Shown piece after piece: positions 12,391 to 20,044 of a DNA stretch of 64,000 nt. Origin of the DNA: an uncultured Prevotellaceae bacterium (lineage in GTDB: Bacteria > Bacteroidota > Bacteroidia > Bacteroidales > Bacteroidaceae); assembly GCA_947167515.1 (NCBI GenBank), contig CAMVIM010000022.1, forward strand, positions 1 through 64,000, written 5' to 3'. How positions within the stretch are numbered: the first letter of the stretch is position 1; every line of letters begins with the position of its first letter. The position numbers and the translations under genes are program-made. The notes below the pieces were generated by a model that saw only the letters and a list, made by a program, of their open reading frames with translations, was not told the origin of the DNA and ran no database searches.

Positions 12391-13620
12391 TTACTCAACT
12401 TTTTCTATGCACTTCCTCAACCGCTCCAGAGCGTCTTGGAGCACATGGCGTTGGGTGCCCACATTGAGGCGCATGAAGCCGGCACCACCGGGACCGAACA
12501 TTTCACCGTCGTTGAGGGCAAGGTGGGCTTGGTTGACGAAGAGGTCAACGAGTTCCTGATGGTTGAGTCGCAAGTCACGGCAGTCGAGCCAGACGAGGAA
12601 GGAGGCTTGGGGACGGAGGGGCTTGATGTGCGGAAGGTGCTGCTGGCAGTAGTCGATGAGAAAGTCGATGTTGCCCTCCACATAACGAAGCATCTGCTGT
12701 CGCCACTCTTCTCCCTGCTGCAAGGCTGCAAGGGTGGCGATGGGCGCAAAGAGATGAGGTTCGTTCCATTCGTTGGCTGTCAGCCATCGGTAGAAGGGAG
12801 TGCGCAGTTGCGGATTGGGTATGATTGCCCACGAAGAGACGATGCCTGCCATGTTGAAGGTCTTGGTGGGGGCACCAAAGGTGATGCTCACTTCAGCAGC
12901 CTCCTCGCTCACCGAAGCAAAGGGGATGTGGCGGTTGCCCCAGAGCGCCATGTCGGCATGAATCTCGTCGCTGATGACGATGAGGTTGTGCTCCTGGGCA
13001 AAGTGTGCCAGGCGTTGCAAGGTCTCCCTTTCCCACACGATGCCCGCAGGGTTGTGGGGATTGGAAAGGATGAGCAAGCGGGGGCGGTTAGTTGACAGCT
13101 GACAGTGGACAGTGGACAGTTGGGGGGTGCAGATTTTTTCGAGGTTGTCGAAGTCCATCTCGTAAGAAATGATATGCCCCTCCGCATCACAAATCTCCTT
13201 CAGCGGGTTCCACACCACTTCGCGTTGGTTTCCTCTGGGTGTGAGGAAGAAAGGGTGGTAGATGGGTGGCTGGACTATGACTTTTGCATCCTCTTCCAAG
13301 AAGAAGTTGATGACCATGCCGATGCCTTTCACGATGCCAGGGATGTAGGTGAGCCATTCACGTTCCACGTGCCATTGGTGGTGGTCCTCAATCCATCGCT
13401 GCACCGTCTGCCAGTACTCCTTGGGCTCTACGGTGTAGCCATACAGCGAGTGCTCCAGCCGCGCCTTCAGGGCATCGGTGATGAAGGAGGGCGTTTCCCA
13501 ATCCATGTCAGCCACCCACAACGGCAGGAGATCACTCCGTCCATATCGTTCCTGAAGCACCTCATGCTTCAAATCGCCCGACCCTCTGCGGTCAACAGGC
13601 TTGTCAAAATCGTAGTGCAT
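12391..13620 (-). CDS. patB: PatB/MalY-type C-S lyase (cystathionine beta-lyase family)
   Basis: A PLP-dependent class I aminotransferase-fold enzyme, 409 residues from the ATG at 13620 (MHYDFDKPVDRRGSGDLKHE); the 28 upstream codons in the track are simple repeat. It should cleave cystathionine or cysteine, releasing thiol or sulfide plus pyruvate and ammonia. Visible marks are LPLWVADMDWETP, YGYTVEPKEYW, ILSNPHNPAGIVW and the PLP lysine in FGAPTKTFNMAGI. A short segment, QLSTVHCQLST, encoded by a simple repeat, is inserted before the PLP-binding half. It lies 115 bp downstream of sufS, across a terminator-like repeat, so it may be partly uncoupled from the sulfur operon. Confidence 0.85.
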   Translation of the reverse strand: MHYDFDKPVDRRGSGDLKHEVLQERYGRSDLLPLWVADMDWETPSFITDALKARLEHSLYGYTVEPKEYWQTVQRWIEDHHQWHVEREWLTYIPGIVKGIGMVINFFLEEDAKVIVQPPIYHPFFLTPRGNQREVVWNPLKEICDAEGHIISYEMDFDNLEKICTPQLSTVHCQLSTNRPRLLILSNPHNPAGIVWERETLQRLAHFAQEHNLIVISDEIHADMALWGNRHIPFASVSEEAAEVSITFGAPTKTFNMAGIVSSWAIIPNPQLRTPFYRWLTANEWNEPHLFAPIATLAALQQGEEWRQQMLRYVEGNIDFLIDYCQQHLPHIKPLRPQASFLVWLDCRDLRLNHQELVDLFVNQAHLALNDGEMFGPGGAGFMRLNVGTQRHVLQDALERLRKCIEKVE

Positions 13621-13735: not shown

Positions 13736-15331
13736 TTACCTTTTTGACACATCCGCCACGATGCGTTCCAATGCGATGACCAGACGGTCAACCTCTTCTT
13801 TGGTGTTATACACCGCAAAGGTGGGACGCACGGACATCTCGTAACCGAGGGCACGGAGGGCTGGTTGCGCACAGTGGTGTCCGGCACGCACGGCTATGCC
13901 CTCTTTGTCGAGCAACTGTCCCACCTGAGGGGCAGGAATGCCCGGAATGTCGAGCGAGATGACGCTGACACGCTTCTTGGGGTTGCCCATGATGGTGATG
14001 CCTGGGATGCGTGATATTTGCTGTCGAGCATACTCGGTGAGTTCATGCTCATGGCGTTCGATGTTGTGGATGCCCACACTCTGCACGAAGTCGAGCGCAT
14101 AACCCAACCCGATGGCATCGGCAATGTTAGGCGTTCCTGCTTCGAAGCGAGCTGGAGGCACGTTGAACTCGGTGTGCTCGATGGTCACATCCTTGATCAT
14201 GTTACCTCCACCTTGCCAAGGTGGGAGTTGTTCAAGCCACTCCTTCTTGCCATAGACCACCCCGATGCCCGAAGGCCCGTAAATCTTGTGGCCGGAGAAG
14301 ACGAAGAAGTCTGCGTCGAGTTGCTGTACATCCACCTTGGTGTGGGCGATGGACTGTGCACCATCGATGAGCACGGGGATGCCGTGGGCGTGGGCAGTGC
14401 GGATGATGCTTGCCACGTCGTTGATGGTGCCAAAAGTATTGTTCACATGACCTACGCTGACGAACTTGGTGCGGGGCGTGATGAGACGCTCCAATTCGCT
14501 GAGGATGAGGTCACCGTTCTTGTCGATAGGGATGGCGCGGAGTTCCGCCTTGCGTTCCCTGCTGATTTGCTGCCAAGGCACGATGTTGGCGTGGTGGTCG
14601 AGGGTGGAGACAATCACGTTGTCACCCTCTTCCAAGAACTTGCGTCCGAAAGTCTGTGCCACAAGGTTGATGCCCTCGGTGGTGCCACGCACAAAGAGGA
14701 TGTTCTCCTTGGCTGGGGCATTGATGAAACGCGCCACCTTCTCTCGTGCGCCCTCATACTGGTCGGTGCTTCGTGCTGCCAGCGTGTGTGCGCCTCGGTG
14801 GATGTTGGAGTAGTCCGTCTTGTAGAAGTGGCTCACTCCGTCAATGACCCTCAGAGGCTTCTGCGTGGTGGCACCATTGTCGAACCATACGAGGTCGTGT
14901 CCGTTCACCTTCTGATGCAGAATGGGGAACTGCTTGCGAATCTCGTCGGTGTTGACCGTGTCAGCCTCGTCGTAGTGGAGGTGCCGCACGATGTCCGTCT
15001 CTGGTATGCCAATGCCGAACCCGTTGTCAGTTGACAGTTGAGAGTCGAAAGTGGGCAGTTGGGCATCATCCGAAGAGGGCGCACTAGCAGGAGCAGACTG
15101 CCCCGATTGCAAGTCCTCGGCAAAGTACTTCTCCATCACTTTGCGGAAGAGGCACTGGTCAGCGGAACTCAGCCCACCAATCTGGGGTGCACCCCCTGCC
15201 AGGGAAGTGGCAGGAATGGGCAGTGATGACAAGTCCAACTCGTCTGGAGCCTCGTTCGGCACAGCCACCTGCGGCACTTGACCCCTATCCGGCAAGTCAA
15301 AATGGAAATTATCTAATTCGTTCAGATACAT
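13736..15331 (-). CDS. sufS: SufS-type cysteine desulfurase with N-terminal encapsulin-cargo extension
   Basis: 531 residues, about 125 longer than ordinary SufS. The catalytic part (~128-531) has RGAHTLAARSTDQYEGAR, the PLP lysine in FVFSGHKIYGPSGIGVVYG, and the active Cys in RAGHHCAQP. It removes sulfur from L-cysteine as persulfide. The extension is Pro/Ala/Ser-rich and disordered, with one helix-like patch (SSADQCLFRKVMEKYFAED); this is the expected form of a cargo-loading domain for a family 2 encapsulin. The gene follows the encapsulin stop with no gap (TAAATG). A simple-repeat insert encodes QLPTFDSQLST inside the extension. I infer packaging into the shell encoded upstream. Confidence 0.9.
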   Translation of the reverse strand: MYLNELDNFHFDLPDRGQVPQVAVPNEAPDELDLSSLPIPATSLAGGAPQIGGLSSADQCLFRKVMEKYFAEDLQSGQSAPASAPSSDDAQLPTFDSQLSTDNGFGIGIPETDIVRHLHYDEADTVNTDEIRKQFPILHQKVNGHDLVWFDNGATTQKPLRVIDGVSHFYKTDYSNIHRGAHTLAARSTDQYEGAREKVARFINAPAKENILFVRGTTEGINLVAQTFGRKFLEEGDNVIVSTLDHHANIVPWQQISRERKAELRAIPIDKNGDLILSELERLITPRTKFVSVGHVNNTFGTINDVASIIRTAHAHGIPVLIDGAQSIAHTKVDVQQLDADFFVFSGHKIYGPSGIGVVYGKKEWLEQLPPWQGGGNMIKDVTIEHTEFNVPPARFEAGTPNIADAIGLGYALDFVQSVGIHNIERHEHELTEYARQQISRIPGITIMGNPKKRVSVISLDIPGIPAPQVGQLLDKEGIAVRAGHHCAQPALRALGYEMSVRPTFAVYNTKEEVDRLVIALERIVADVSKR

Positions 15332-16771
15332 TTACTTCTCGATTTTGTTTCTGTGCTGATAATCGTGATAGTAGCCCACCTCCACATTCTCGAGGACTGC
15401 AATCGCATCGTCGGTGAGAGAAGCGAGGCTGAAATACTTGGTGAGCAGATAACTTGCCACGCCATACTGGTCAAGACCCATCAGACGTGCCGAGAGGCTT
15501 GGAGCGATTTCGCCAGGGATGCCAGCCTGATGCAGACCTACCACACCCTGCTCCTTCTCGCCTACACGAACAAGGATAATCTCTGTGGTGCCCACGCCAC
15601 GATTGGTCAGGTACTGACCCTTGATTTCCACCTTGTCAGATGGGATGATAGGCACACCACGCCAAGTGATGACTTTCGTGCCGAAGAGGTCGATGGACAC
15701 AGGTGGCACACCACGCCAAGTGCACTCACGCTCGAAGGCGGCGATGGCACGTGGGTTGGCAATGAAGAAAGCAGGCTCTTTCCACACGAGTGACAGGAGT
15801 TCATCGAGGTCGTCTGGTGTGGGTGAACCATAGCGAGTGCTGATCTTGTAACCAGGAGCAGCCTGAGCCAAGAGTCCGAACTTCTTGTTGTTGATGAGTT
15901 CCCACTCCTGACGCTCCTTGATGCTCTCGATGGAGAGGCGCAACTGCTGTTCCAACTGGTTGTAGGGAGCATTGTAGAGGTCGCTCACACGGGTGTGTAC
16001 ACGAACCACTGTCTGCAGGGTGTTGAGCGAGTACTCTGTCGGATTCTCCTCATAGTCAATATAGGTCTCTGGGATGACATTATCTTCCTCATGACCGCTC
16101 ACGAGGTCAATATGCTTCTCACCATGATCATTCACCGTCGCCTTCAGACGCAGGTGCTCATCGACAGCCTTGTTGAACTGCTCGCGGAAGTCGGGAATCT
16201 CCTCGATGAGTGACTCCAACACGGGGGTCTCCAATGCCAGGAACACTGAATCTGTCACGGCACGTACACTCACCGTAGAGTCTGCTGCACTCAGCAAGTC
16301 TGCCTCACCGAAGTACTCACCATCGCCCAAGAGTGCGATGCGCAGTTCCTCGCCATGAGTACCTGTGCTTATGACCTCAGCCTGTCCGTTTGCCACGATG
16401 AAGAACTTCTGCTTGTCCTTTCCCTGAGTGACGAGGTTCTTGCCACGAGCCAACTCTACAGGCACGAAATTGCGAGCCAAACGAGCCACAATCTCCTGCT
16501 TGATGTTCTGGAAGAGCGGAATGGCACGGAGATTCTTCGCCGTGAAACTGGGCACGCCATCGAAGTACTGAATCTCGATGCGTTCAGCCTTTTTCAGTTC
16601 CACCTTCGTACGGTTCACACGATAGGTGCCACTTTCCACCTGTGTCCAAGGAAGAAGTTTGAGGAGAAGTCTCGGTGTAATACTGCCCATCTGAGGGGCT
16701 GTCTTGGTGGTGTTCGCCAGTTTGCGAGCCGTTGCAGTCGTGATACTGCGCTGAATGTTGTTGTCTGCCAT
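15332..16771 (-). CDS. Family 2 (2B-type) encapsulin shell protein with internal cNMP-binding domain
   Basis: A 479-residue HK97-fold shell protein. The N-terminal arm (ATARKLANTTKTAPQMGSIT, LPWTQVESGTYRVNR) and C-terminal shell region (YNQLEQQLRLSIESIKERQ, TPDDLDELLSLVWKEPAFF, NRGVGTTEIILVRVGEKEQG) match SrpI-like encapsulins. Residues ~80-200 are a CAP_ED/cNMP-binding domain (GDGEYFGEADLLSAADSTVS), the mark of subtype 2B. The usual phosphate-binding Arg of the cassette appears replaced, so nucleotide binding is uncertain. Such shells in other bacteria package cysteine desulfurase and store sulfur. It lies 19 bp after the JAMM gene and abuts sufS. Automated pipelines may call it a cNMP-binding regulator. 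Confidence 0.9.
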   Translation of the reverse strand: MADNNIQRSITTATARKLANTTKTAPQMGSITPRLLLKLLPWTQVESGTYRVNRTKVELKKAERIEIQYFDGVPSFTAKNLRAIPLFQNIKQEIVARLARNFVPVELARGKNLVTQGKDKQKFFIVANGQAEVISTGTHGEELRIALLGDGEYFGEADLLSAADSTVSVRAVTDSVFLALETPVLESLIEEIPDFREQFNKAVDEHLRLKATVNDHGEKHIDLVSGHEEDNVIPETYIDYEENPTEYSLNTLQTVVRVHTRVSDLYNAPYNQLEQQLRLSIESIKERQEWELINNKKFGLLAQAAPGYKISTRYGSPTPDDLDELLSLVWKEPAFFIANPRAIAAFERECTWRGVPPVSIDLFGTKVITWRGVPIIPSDKVEIKGQYLTNRGVGTTEIILVRVGEKEQGVVGLHQAGIPGEIAPSLSARLMGLDQYGVASYLLTKYFSLASLTDDAIAVLENVEVGYYHDYQHRNKIEK

Positions 16772-16790: not shown

Positions 16791-17186
16791 TTATCTTAGT
16801 GTAATTTTCTCAGTTACTTCTCCCTCTGCGATGCGAAAAGCATTGAGCACAGGCTTCTCTTCTGCCAGCGAGAGGATGAAATAGAGGATGTTAGGGTCAT
16901 AAGCCAAGCGTTTGTCCTCTTCCGAAGGACGGGAGGGTGAAGCAGGATGGCTGTGCCAGTTGCCCACAATCTTCAAGCCCTGCTGACGGGCATATTTGAT
17001 GGCGGCAAACTGCTCCTTGGGGTCGAAACTGAAGTGCTCCTCCGAGTGGTCGATGTTGGTCATCGGGAAGTTCTCCGTAGCCGTTTCCTTGTCGGGACCC
17101 AGCAGATAACCGCACGACTCCACAGGGGCATCCTTCTGTGCTTGCGCCAAGATGGACTGATATGCCGATTCCGTGATAGTGACCAT
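16791..17186 (-). CDS. M67-family JAMM/MPN metallopeptidase (Mec/HcyD-like)
   Basis: 131 residues. The JAMM zinc motif is complete: Glu in APVESCGYLLG, then GNWHSHPASPSRPSEEDKR with the HxH and S-x2-D residues. Bacterial members clip the C-terminus of ubiquitin-like sulfur carriers, either releasing cysteine from CysO (Mec) or maturing a precursor (HcyD). The ThiS-like protein of this operon has a tail after its glycines and is the obvious substrate. The start overlaps the tusA stop by one base (TAATG), so the two are translationally coupled. Confidence 0.9.
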   Translation of the reverse strand: MVTITESAYQSILAQAQKDAPVESCGYLLGPDKETATENFPMTNIDHSEEHFSFDPKEQFAAIKYARQQGLKIVGNWHSHPASPSRPSEEDKRLAYDPNILYFILSLAEEKPVLNAFRIAEGEVTEKITLR

Positions 17187-17919: not shown

Positions 17920-18726
17920 TTATTTGTGTAGGTCGCAAGCAGCCTGTTCGTAATCAATGAGTTCTGTGATGGTTGGATTCGTGCCACAGATGGGGCATCG
18001 GTCTGTCTTCTTCACGTTGATCTTGCGGAAGTCCATCGTCTTGGCATTGAAGGTGAGCAACTTGTTGGTGAGCAGTTCGCCCACACCTGTCAGGTACTTC
18101 AACGTTTCTGCTGCCTGAATCGTGCCCAACATACCTGCAATGGCTCCCAACACACCTGCCTGACTGCACGTAGGCACGGCTCCTGGTGGGGGTGGTGTCT
18201 TAAACATACAACGGTAACAAGCTGTTCCTGGCACATGGGTGAAGGTTTGTCCCTCAAAACGGAGGATGCCACCATGACTGAAAGGTTTGCCAGCCATCAC
18301 ACAGGCATCGTTAATGAGGAACTTCACTGGGAAGTTGTCAGTACCATCCACCACAAAATCATACTCCTTCACGATGTCGAGGGCGTTGTCTGCCACCAGA
18401 AAATCACGATAAGTATTGACCTTCACATGAGGGTTGATGGCGTTGATGGTTTCTTTTGCCGACTCCACTTTCCACTTGTCCACATCGGGCGTGGTGTGGA
18501 TAATCTGACGCTGCAAGTTGCTCAAATCGACCACATCGCCATCCACAATGCCGATAGTGCCGACACCAGCCGCAGCCAGATACATCGCCACGGGAGCACC
18601 CAAGCCACCAGCACCGATGACGAGCACCTTGCCCTCACGGATTTTCTCCTGACCCTCTACACCTACATCCTGCAAAAGGATGTGGCGCGAATAGCGGTTC
18701 AGTTCTTCTTCGGTGAAATCAAACAT
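17920..18726 (-). CDS. thiF: ThiF/MoeB-type E1 adenylyltransferase
   Basis: 268 residues from ATG 18726, set by a strong AAGGAGG 5 nt upstream; the track start 53 codons earlier runs through the thiS tail. It has the nucleotide-binding GxGxxG (VLVIGAGGLGAPVAMYLAAA), Cys pairs for zinc (CYRCMF, CPICG), and the conserved Cys in PTCSQAGVLGAIAG. It activates the C-terminal glycine of a ubiquitin-like sulfur carrier with ATP so that sulfur can be transferred to form a thiocarboxylate. Its partner is the ThiS-like gene that overlaps its start. Confidence 0.9.
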   Translation of the reverse strand: MFDFTEEELNRYSRHILLQDVGVEGQEKIREGKVLVIGAGGLGAPVAMYLAAAGVGTIGIVDGDVVDLSNLQRQIIHTTPDVDKWKVESAKETINAINPHVKVNTYRDFLVADNALDIVKEYDFVVDGTDNFPVKFLINDACVMAGKPFSHGGILRFEGQTFTHVPGTACYRCMFKTPPPPGAVPTCSQAGVLGAIAGMLGTIQAAETLKYLTGVGELLTNKLLTFNAKTMDFRKINVKKTDRCPICGTNPTITELIDYEQAACDLHK

Positions 18727-19045
18727 AACTGTCCTCCTTTGTGCTAAACGTCTGCCCGTTCGTCTTCGTTCCTCGACTCCGACCAGCCGAGCACTGCACC
18801 CCAAGCCTTCCGAATCGATACTCAATCGATTCCTTGTCTTGTCCTCCTCCCATGAAATAAAGGAAATCCACGGTGTCACCCTCATTCAGTTGAAGGGTGG
18901 CAAAGTCTTCTCTGTCCACGAACTCTTCGTTCACCTGCACACTCACCATATCGGGTTGTGCCACATTGTTCTGCTGAATCAAATCTGCTACAGTAGCAGG
19001 GAGTTGAACCTCTTGGTCTTCTCCATTTACAATCAATTTTGCCAT
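18719..19045 (-). CDS. thiS: ThiS-like sulfur carrier with a 40-residue C-terminal tail
   Basis: 108 residues. Residues 1-68 are a standard ThiS/CysO beta-grasp (AKLIVNGEDQEVQLPATVAD, GDTVDFLYFMGGG). In normal carriers the GG ends the protein; here 40 more residues follow (QDKESIEYRFGRLGVQCSAG). The tail DNA holds a perfect hairpin, GAATCGAT-N5-ATCGATTC, and the thiF RBS, so it may be non-coding sequence that lost a stop codon. Alternatively it is a propeptide removed by the JAMM peptidase downstream. Either way the glycines must be exposed before ThiF can act. The leader carries a CCAGCCCACGCGCTGGGCGA repeat. Confidence 0.85.
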   Translation of the reverse strand: MAKLIVNGEDQEVQLPATVADLIQQNNVAQPDMVSVQVNEEFVDREDFATLQLNEGDTVDFLYFMGGGQDKESIEYRFGRLGVQCSAGRSRGTKTNGQTFSTKEDSYV

Positions 19046-19111: not shown

Positions 19112-20044
19112 TTATTCCTCAGAGAAGAGTTTCGTGCTGAGGTAGCGTTCGCCTGTGTCTGGCAGCAGCACCACGATGGTCTTGCCTGCATTCTCTGGGC
19201 GTTTGGCTATCTCAATGGCAGCATGAGCAGCCGCACCGCTGGAGATACCCACCAACGTGCCCTCGGTCTTGGCAAGGAGACGGCTGGCAGCAAAAGCATC
19301 GTCGTTCTTCACTCTGAACACCTCGTCATACACTTTGGTGTTCAGCACCTGAGGCGTGAAACCTGCACCGATGCCCTGCAACTTGTGAGGACCAGGCTTC
19401 TCACCTGACAGCACAGCAGAGTCGTAAGGCTCCACAGCCACCACCTTCACCTTGGGGTTCAGTTGCTTCAGCACCTCACCCACACCTGTGATGGTGCCAC
19501 CCGTACCGACACCAGCCACGAAGATATCCACCTTTCCGTCGGTGTCTTCCCAAATCTCCTTGGCTGTGGTCTGACGATGCACCTCCGGGTTCGCTTCATT
19601 GGCAAACTGCTGAGGGATGAACGCATCAGTCTGTGATGCCAGTTCCTGTGCCTTGCGGATAGCACCAGGCATACCCTCATAGGCAGGCGTGAGCACCAAT
19701 TTGGCACCCAAACTGCGGAGCAACGTGCGGCGCTCGATGCTCATGCTGTCGGGCATCGTGAGGATGAGTTTGTAGCCACGCTGGGCAGCCACCAATGCCA
19801 ATCCCACACCCGTGTTGCCACTGGTGGGTTCGATGATGACGGTGTTCCTGCCGAGAAGTCCTTGCTTCTCAGCCTGTTCGATGAGTGCATAGCCCACGCG
19901 ATCTTTCACGCTGCGTCCTGGATTCAGATACTCCAGCTTTGCCAATACACGGGCTCTCAATCGCTGGTCTTTCTCTACTTTGGAAAGTTCGAGCAAAGGT
20001 GTTTTGCCTATCAGTTCTACAAGGCTTTGTGCTATTTTTGCCAT
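19112..20044 (-). CDS. cysK: Cysteine synthase (O-acetylserine sulfhydrylase)
   Basis: 310 residues of the PLP fold type II family. It has the PLP lysine in [16 protein letters not shown], the substrate loop [17 protein letters not shown], the phosphate loop [12 protein letters not shown], and [12 protein letters not shown]. It makes cysteine from O-acetylserine and sulfide; in this context the sulfur could also arrive as a carrier thiocarboxylate, as in the mycobacterial CysM-CysO route. The gene leads the sulfur/encapsulin operon. Its promoter carries the shared palindrome box (20118-20187), and its leader has a CCAGCCCATGCGCTGGGCGA hairpin. Confidence 0.93.

Follow-up and report, generated by a model that had tools for sequence, protein, structure and literature searches.

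A Disordered N-Terminal Extension with a Conserved Helical Patch as the Predicted Cargo-Loading Domain of an Encapsulin-Linked SufS Desulfurase in Bacteroidales

Introduction

Nichols et al. (2021, PMC8049743) have studied the cysteine desulfurase CyD, the Family 2A encapsulin cargo of Synechococcus elongatus PCC 7942. They found that deletion of its N-terminal domain (NTD) abolished loading, that a fusion of the NTD to sfGFP was loaded, and that the NTD had no effect on catalysis. Residues 1–100 loaded partly, and residues 155–183, which include the motif AASPYYFLDG, did not load. For Family 2B, 199 cysteine-desulfurase operons have been reported, and their distribution among phyla is like that of Family 2A (PMC8346489). 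These operons combine a shell that holds a cNMP-binding domain with a desulfurase whose disordered N-terminus is unannotated. In the literature surveyed on these operons, we found neither loading tests nor Bacteroidales motifs for the Family 2B desulfurases.

Here, we analyzed a window of 64,000 nt from an uncultured Prevotellaceae bacterium (contig CAMVIM010000022.1), in which one locus fits the Family 2B class. The open reading frame and profile matches identify a SufS-type cysteine desulfurase of 531 aa with an N-terminal extension, a putative encapsulin cargo (13736..15331, minus strand; all features given below lie on this strand). As in CyD, the region ahead of the SufS fold is disordered and Pro/Ala/Ser-rich, its motifs are sparse and short, the gene stands beside a gene for a SrpI shell, and the domain is absent from housekeeping desulfurases (PMC8049743). 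The two systems differ in that the NTD of CyD has 225 aa, compared with 125 here, and the CyD shell has no cNMP domain.

Results and Discussion

Extent and Disorder of the Extension

The Pfam Aminotran_5 match of the desulfurase begins at residue 148 and the TIGR01979 SufS match at residue 130, while alignments with the closest PDB SufS structures begin at residues 123–131. Because the domain models and the PDB alignments all start between residues 123 and 148, about 125 residues were placed ahead of the SufS fold. The extension, predicted to be a cargo-loading domain, was thus delimited as residues 1–125 (14957..15331) by the fold start, composition and pLDDT. The SufS catalytic domain (13739..14956) was delimited by profile and structure alignments; its PLP lysine (SGHK, K349) and catalytic Cys (RAGHHC, C487) are invariant in the alignment of relatives.

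Pro, Ala, Ser and Asp make up 39% of residues 1–125, compared with 23% of the core, and the net charge of the extension is −16. The AlphaFold pLDDT was 23–42 over the extension, except for a helix at residues 56–75 (59–72). Given the shallow AlphaFold alignment and a poor model even of the core, this helix is a prediction of moderate weight. The profile and PDB starts, the composition and the low pLDDT agree with the original prediction that about 125 Pro/Ala/Ser/Asp-rich residues precede the SufS fold.

Two Conserved Elements in the Extension

We collected 110 loci holding a shell relative, which gave 89 non-redundant extensions of 74 to 159 aa. A helical patch, LSSADQCLFRKVMEKYFAEDLQ (residues 54–75, 15107..15172), is the predicted shell-binding motif on the basis of its conservation, dN/dS and predicted helix; the patch DQCLFRKVMEKYFAED at residues 58–73 lies within it. 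The original prediction had singled it out as the one amphipathic patch of the extension. In the single sequence, however, its amphipathicity was not unusual (654 of 5000 shuffles, or 13%, were equal or better for the P/G-free 14-mers of the extension), nor was the length of the P/G-free run, which was matched in 24% of shuffles. We judged the patch to be real because it is kept in 89/89 non-redundant relatives, and not because of its amphipathicity. It occurs in two subtypes, KYF (41 relatives, including the window) and KYC (48), and these are homologous (hhalign 18.3, 0/200 column shuffles as high). The dN/dS of the patch was 0.15–0.19; the core had 0.05 and the shell 0.04.

Directly before the fold, all 89 relatives carry a second conserved block, GFGIGIPET...Y[DE]E.DT, which in the window is GFGIGIPETDIVRHLHYDEADT (residues 104–125, 14957..15022). 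Its dN/dS of 0.05–0.06 is like that of the enzyme core. The original prediction overlooked this GFGIGIPE block, as it did the conserved start MYLNELDNF. The extreme N-terminus, MYLNELDNFHFDLP (residues 1–14, 15290..15331), is recognisably similar in most relatives (MYxNELDN / MINLSELNSF).

The GFGIGIPE block is better conserved than the patch, so it is possible that the patch is not the chief element. Loading might occur mainly through the block, or through several weak sites jointly, with the helix only accessory. It also fits this alternative that the block sits roughly where the YYFL motif stands in more distant Bacteroidota and 2A systems. However, the block adjoins the fold, so packing on SufS accounts equally well for its conservation, and the YYFL-like segment alone did not load in S. 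elongatus (PMC8049743). We regard this alternative as rather unlikely, and consider that the patch is probably the main loading determinant of the extension.

Link between the Extension and the Shell

The gene of the encapsulin shell protein (15332..16771) directly adjoins the SufS gene, with TAA followed at once by ATG. Its product holds a SrpI-like HK97 domain (PF19307) with an internal cNMP-binding insertion (PF00027). It scored 563 bits with the NCBIfam 2B model NF041163 (cut-off 400) and 426 bits with the 2A model. We assigned the shell to Family 2B by domain content, since the presence of a cNMP-binding domain is the domain criterion of PMC8346489.

SufS follows the shell in 109 of the 110 loci; in the remaining one (L098), the sequence stops 345 nt beyond the shell. 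A further SufS of the source genome, encoded in a sufBCDS operon, has no extension. We then compared 19 genomes. Each of the six shell-bearing genomes has two SufS, of which one is extended (open frame 514–559 aa); the 13 shell-less genomes each have a single plain SufS (404–449 aa). Among the 19 genomes tested, the N-terminal extension is restricted to shell-linked SufS.

Further operon genes (18719–19045, 17920–18885, 16791–17186 and 19112–20044, all on the minus strand) encode a ThiS-like carrier, a ThiF-like enzyme, a JAMM protease, a DsrE2-like protein and a cysteine synthase. This gene set resembles a pathway that makes cysteine by way of a carrier protein, placed next to an enzyme that degrades cysteine. 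In loci with a ThiS match, the carrier ends in FLYFMGGG and at least one extra residue (40 extra in the window). Because its GGG end bears these extra residues, the JAMM protease may need to trim the carrier.

The several sulfur-carrier genes in the operon, and a conserved Cys in the linkers of many relatives (CLLKD), might suggest that the extension does not serve loading at all. It could regulate the desulfurase or recruit one of the DsrE-, ThiF- or ThiS-like operon proteins, for example, as a sulfur acceptor. However, the extension tracks shell presence exactly in the 19 genomes, 2A systems with different neighbours still bear N-terminal domains, and the S. elongatus NTD left catalysis unchanged (PMC8049743). 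We consider such a role improbable; our analysis indicates that residues 1–125 are very probably the loading domain of the shell-linked SufS.

We also investigated whether patch and shell vary together. On the shell tree, two changes of patch subtype were counted, compared with 29 for shuffled labels. Two members of the genus of the window (L018, L022) have KYC-type shells together with KYC-type patches, as would be the case if shell and cargo moved as a pair. In three Paludibacteraceae loci (L066–L068), a KYC-type patch is combined with a shell of the KYF clade, so a shell of one type apparently occurs with patches of both types. No shell residue switching with the patch subtype was found: there are nine fixed differences, none of which is followed by L066–L068. 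As these loci follow none of the nine, the covariation of subtype and shell reflects descent, with no visible specificity switch. The covariation is operon co-inheritance and not proof of contact. In the alignment, MAFFT placed extension-only rows against the shell's own KYF; this was judged an artefact and the rows were removed. An AlphaFold run on a read-through chain of shell and extension did not fold the shell (pTM 0.31) and was uninformative for docking, and it again predicted a helix at the patch.

Repeat DNA in the Linker

Tandem Repeats Finder detected 5.6 copies of a 7-mer over 39 nt with 75% matches (15023..15061). This degenerate heptamer array of CAACTGN type encodes QLPTFDSQLSTDN (residues 91–103) within the linker. 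The original prediction had described QLSTD as a simple-repeat-encoded insert, from which it concluded that the region tolerates length change. QLSTD is part of the array, which is larger than stated there. The window shares the array with one sibling lineage (L003/L032); other close relatives are without it, and its place is filled by unrelated sequence, often ...CLLKDNG. The linker of the window has 30 aa and that of relatives without the array usually 29–30 aa (mode), so the array caused no net lengthening. Thus, the repeat is real, but it did not lengthen the linker; the linkers of the relatives range from 20 to 81 aa, so tolerance of length change is borne out by them and not by the repeat itself.

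The TCAACTNTCAACT motif occurs 105 times in the 3.68-Mb genome, compared with about 0.4 expected (12 fixed bases, equal base frequencies). Genome-wide, the TCAACTNTCAACT heptamer tandems form clustered arrays on both strands. A reversed-pattern control was uninformative for the heptamers, because the unit reads as the same cycle backwards. Similar arrays of the heptamer TAACTGA have been described for a few Bacteroidetes (PMC4679880).

The same heptamer gave rise to an in-frame insertion, TPQLSTVHCQLSTN (13087..13128; Tandem Repeats Finder array 13090–13120), in the neighbouring gene of a PatB-like C-S lyase, and the PatB of relatives has no counterpart. The insertion sits just before the conserved LLILSNPHNPAG of this lyase; in another locus (L037), the lyase has a different Ser/Pro insertion nearby. 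Other repeats were found in the extensions of relatives. The linkers of L035 and L038 hold a 102-nt element with palindromic arms, and the arms recur elsewhere in those genomes. A stretch of about 30 nt (AGGCTACGGGTAGGCGAGC..AGCTCGGGAATG) is nearly identical in two species, L102 and L029, where it sits in frame at two different sites of the extension. In L102 it falls inside the KYCPE motif, and a second copy lies elsewhere in the genome.

Stretches derived from repeats are present in this linker, in those of relatives and in the PatB gene nearby, and they could suggest that the whole extension is functionless, neutral read-through of repeat-rich DNA. This is extremely improbable. It is refuted for the patch and the GFGIGIPE block, which are under purifying selection and present in 89/89 relatives, and applies to no more than parts of the linker.

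Proposed Loading Mechanism

By homology of the system and of its architecture, the extension of the window most likely loads SufS into the shell. Our overall account, which we hold with good though not full confidence, is that a disordered tether with a patch helix would load the desulfurase into the SrpI-like shell. While the shell assembles, the helix (residues 54–75) would attach to the luminal face of the neighbouring shell protein and so keep the desulfurase tethered inside. Both the role of the patch as main contact and the luminal position of the site are our inference. Residues 76–103 would serve as a spacer, partly repeat-derived here, that depends little on its precise sequence or length. 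The GFGIGIPE block (residues 104–125) may make a second contact or else cap the SufS fold.

This makes residues 54–75 a specific candidate for a minimal loading peptide, with residues 104–125 as a rival second element, in an encapsulin group that is common in rumen and gut. It also illustrates how the short motifs of a targeting domain can persist while the spacer changes and is at times built from repeat DNA. Such short, portable tags are useful for loading other enzymes into shells.

Comparison with Known Systems

The SufS part of the desulfurase aligns end to end with the NCBIfam model NF041166 (family 2A encapsulin cargo cysteine desulfurase; profile 217–623). The score is 692 bits, compared with a cut-off of 800, and the first 216 profile positions, which represent the 2A N-terminal domain, are unmatched by the desulfurase of the window.

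CyD carries the motifs LARLANEFFS and AASPYYFLDG. In the window, the first has at best a weakly related counterpart; the second is missing, and GFGIGIPE stands near the fold in its place. We searched the 89 extensions with a PSSM of LARLANEFFS; the best matches lay off the patch, p < 0.05 was reached in only 3%, and we accordingly claim no direct match to the 2A motif. In hhalign comparisons with 2A motif 1, the KYF subtype of the window was not significant (20/200 shuffles) and the KYC subtype was marginal (1/200 shuffles, E 0.008). One locus, L139, whose shell is 76% identical, bridges the KYC subtype and 2A, with a KYC-like helix and YSFL near the fold. No YYFL-like string was found in the extension of the window or in the 89 relatives; such strings are present in systems of the L131–L157 type. 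Motifs of IARLANEFF type and YYFL type occur in 2A desulfurases of several phyla, and in cNMP-type systems of another Bacteroidota family.

Judging from these motifs, the simplest history would be that of one helix that has strongly diverged, with YYFL lost or rebuilt as GFGIGIPE. The Bacteroidales motif set may also have originated independently. A bolder reading, which we put forward tentatively and think doubtful, is that the Bacteroidales Family 2B desulfurases have re-invented a two-part loading code. The KYF/KYC helix and GFGIGIPE would replace the LARLANEFFS and YYFL of other phyla, and the spacer would be a tolerated landing site where dispersed repeats, such as the heptamer arrays and the 102-nt palindromic element, were repeatedly turned into protein. 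The extension of the window is like the NTD of CyD in architecture and probable role; its motif set is different, and its spacer is partly repeat-derived.
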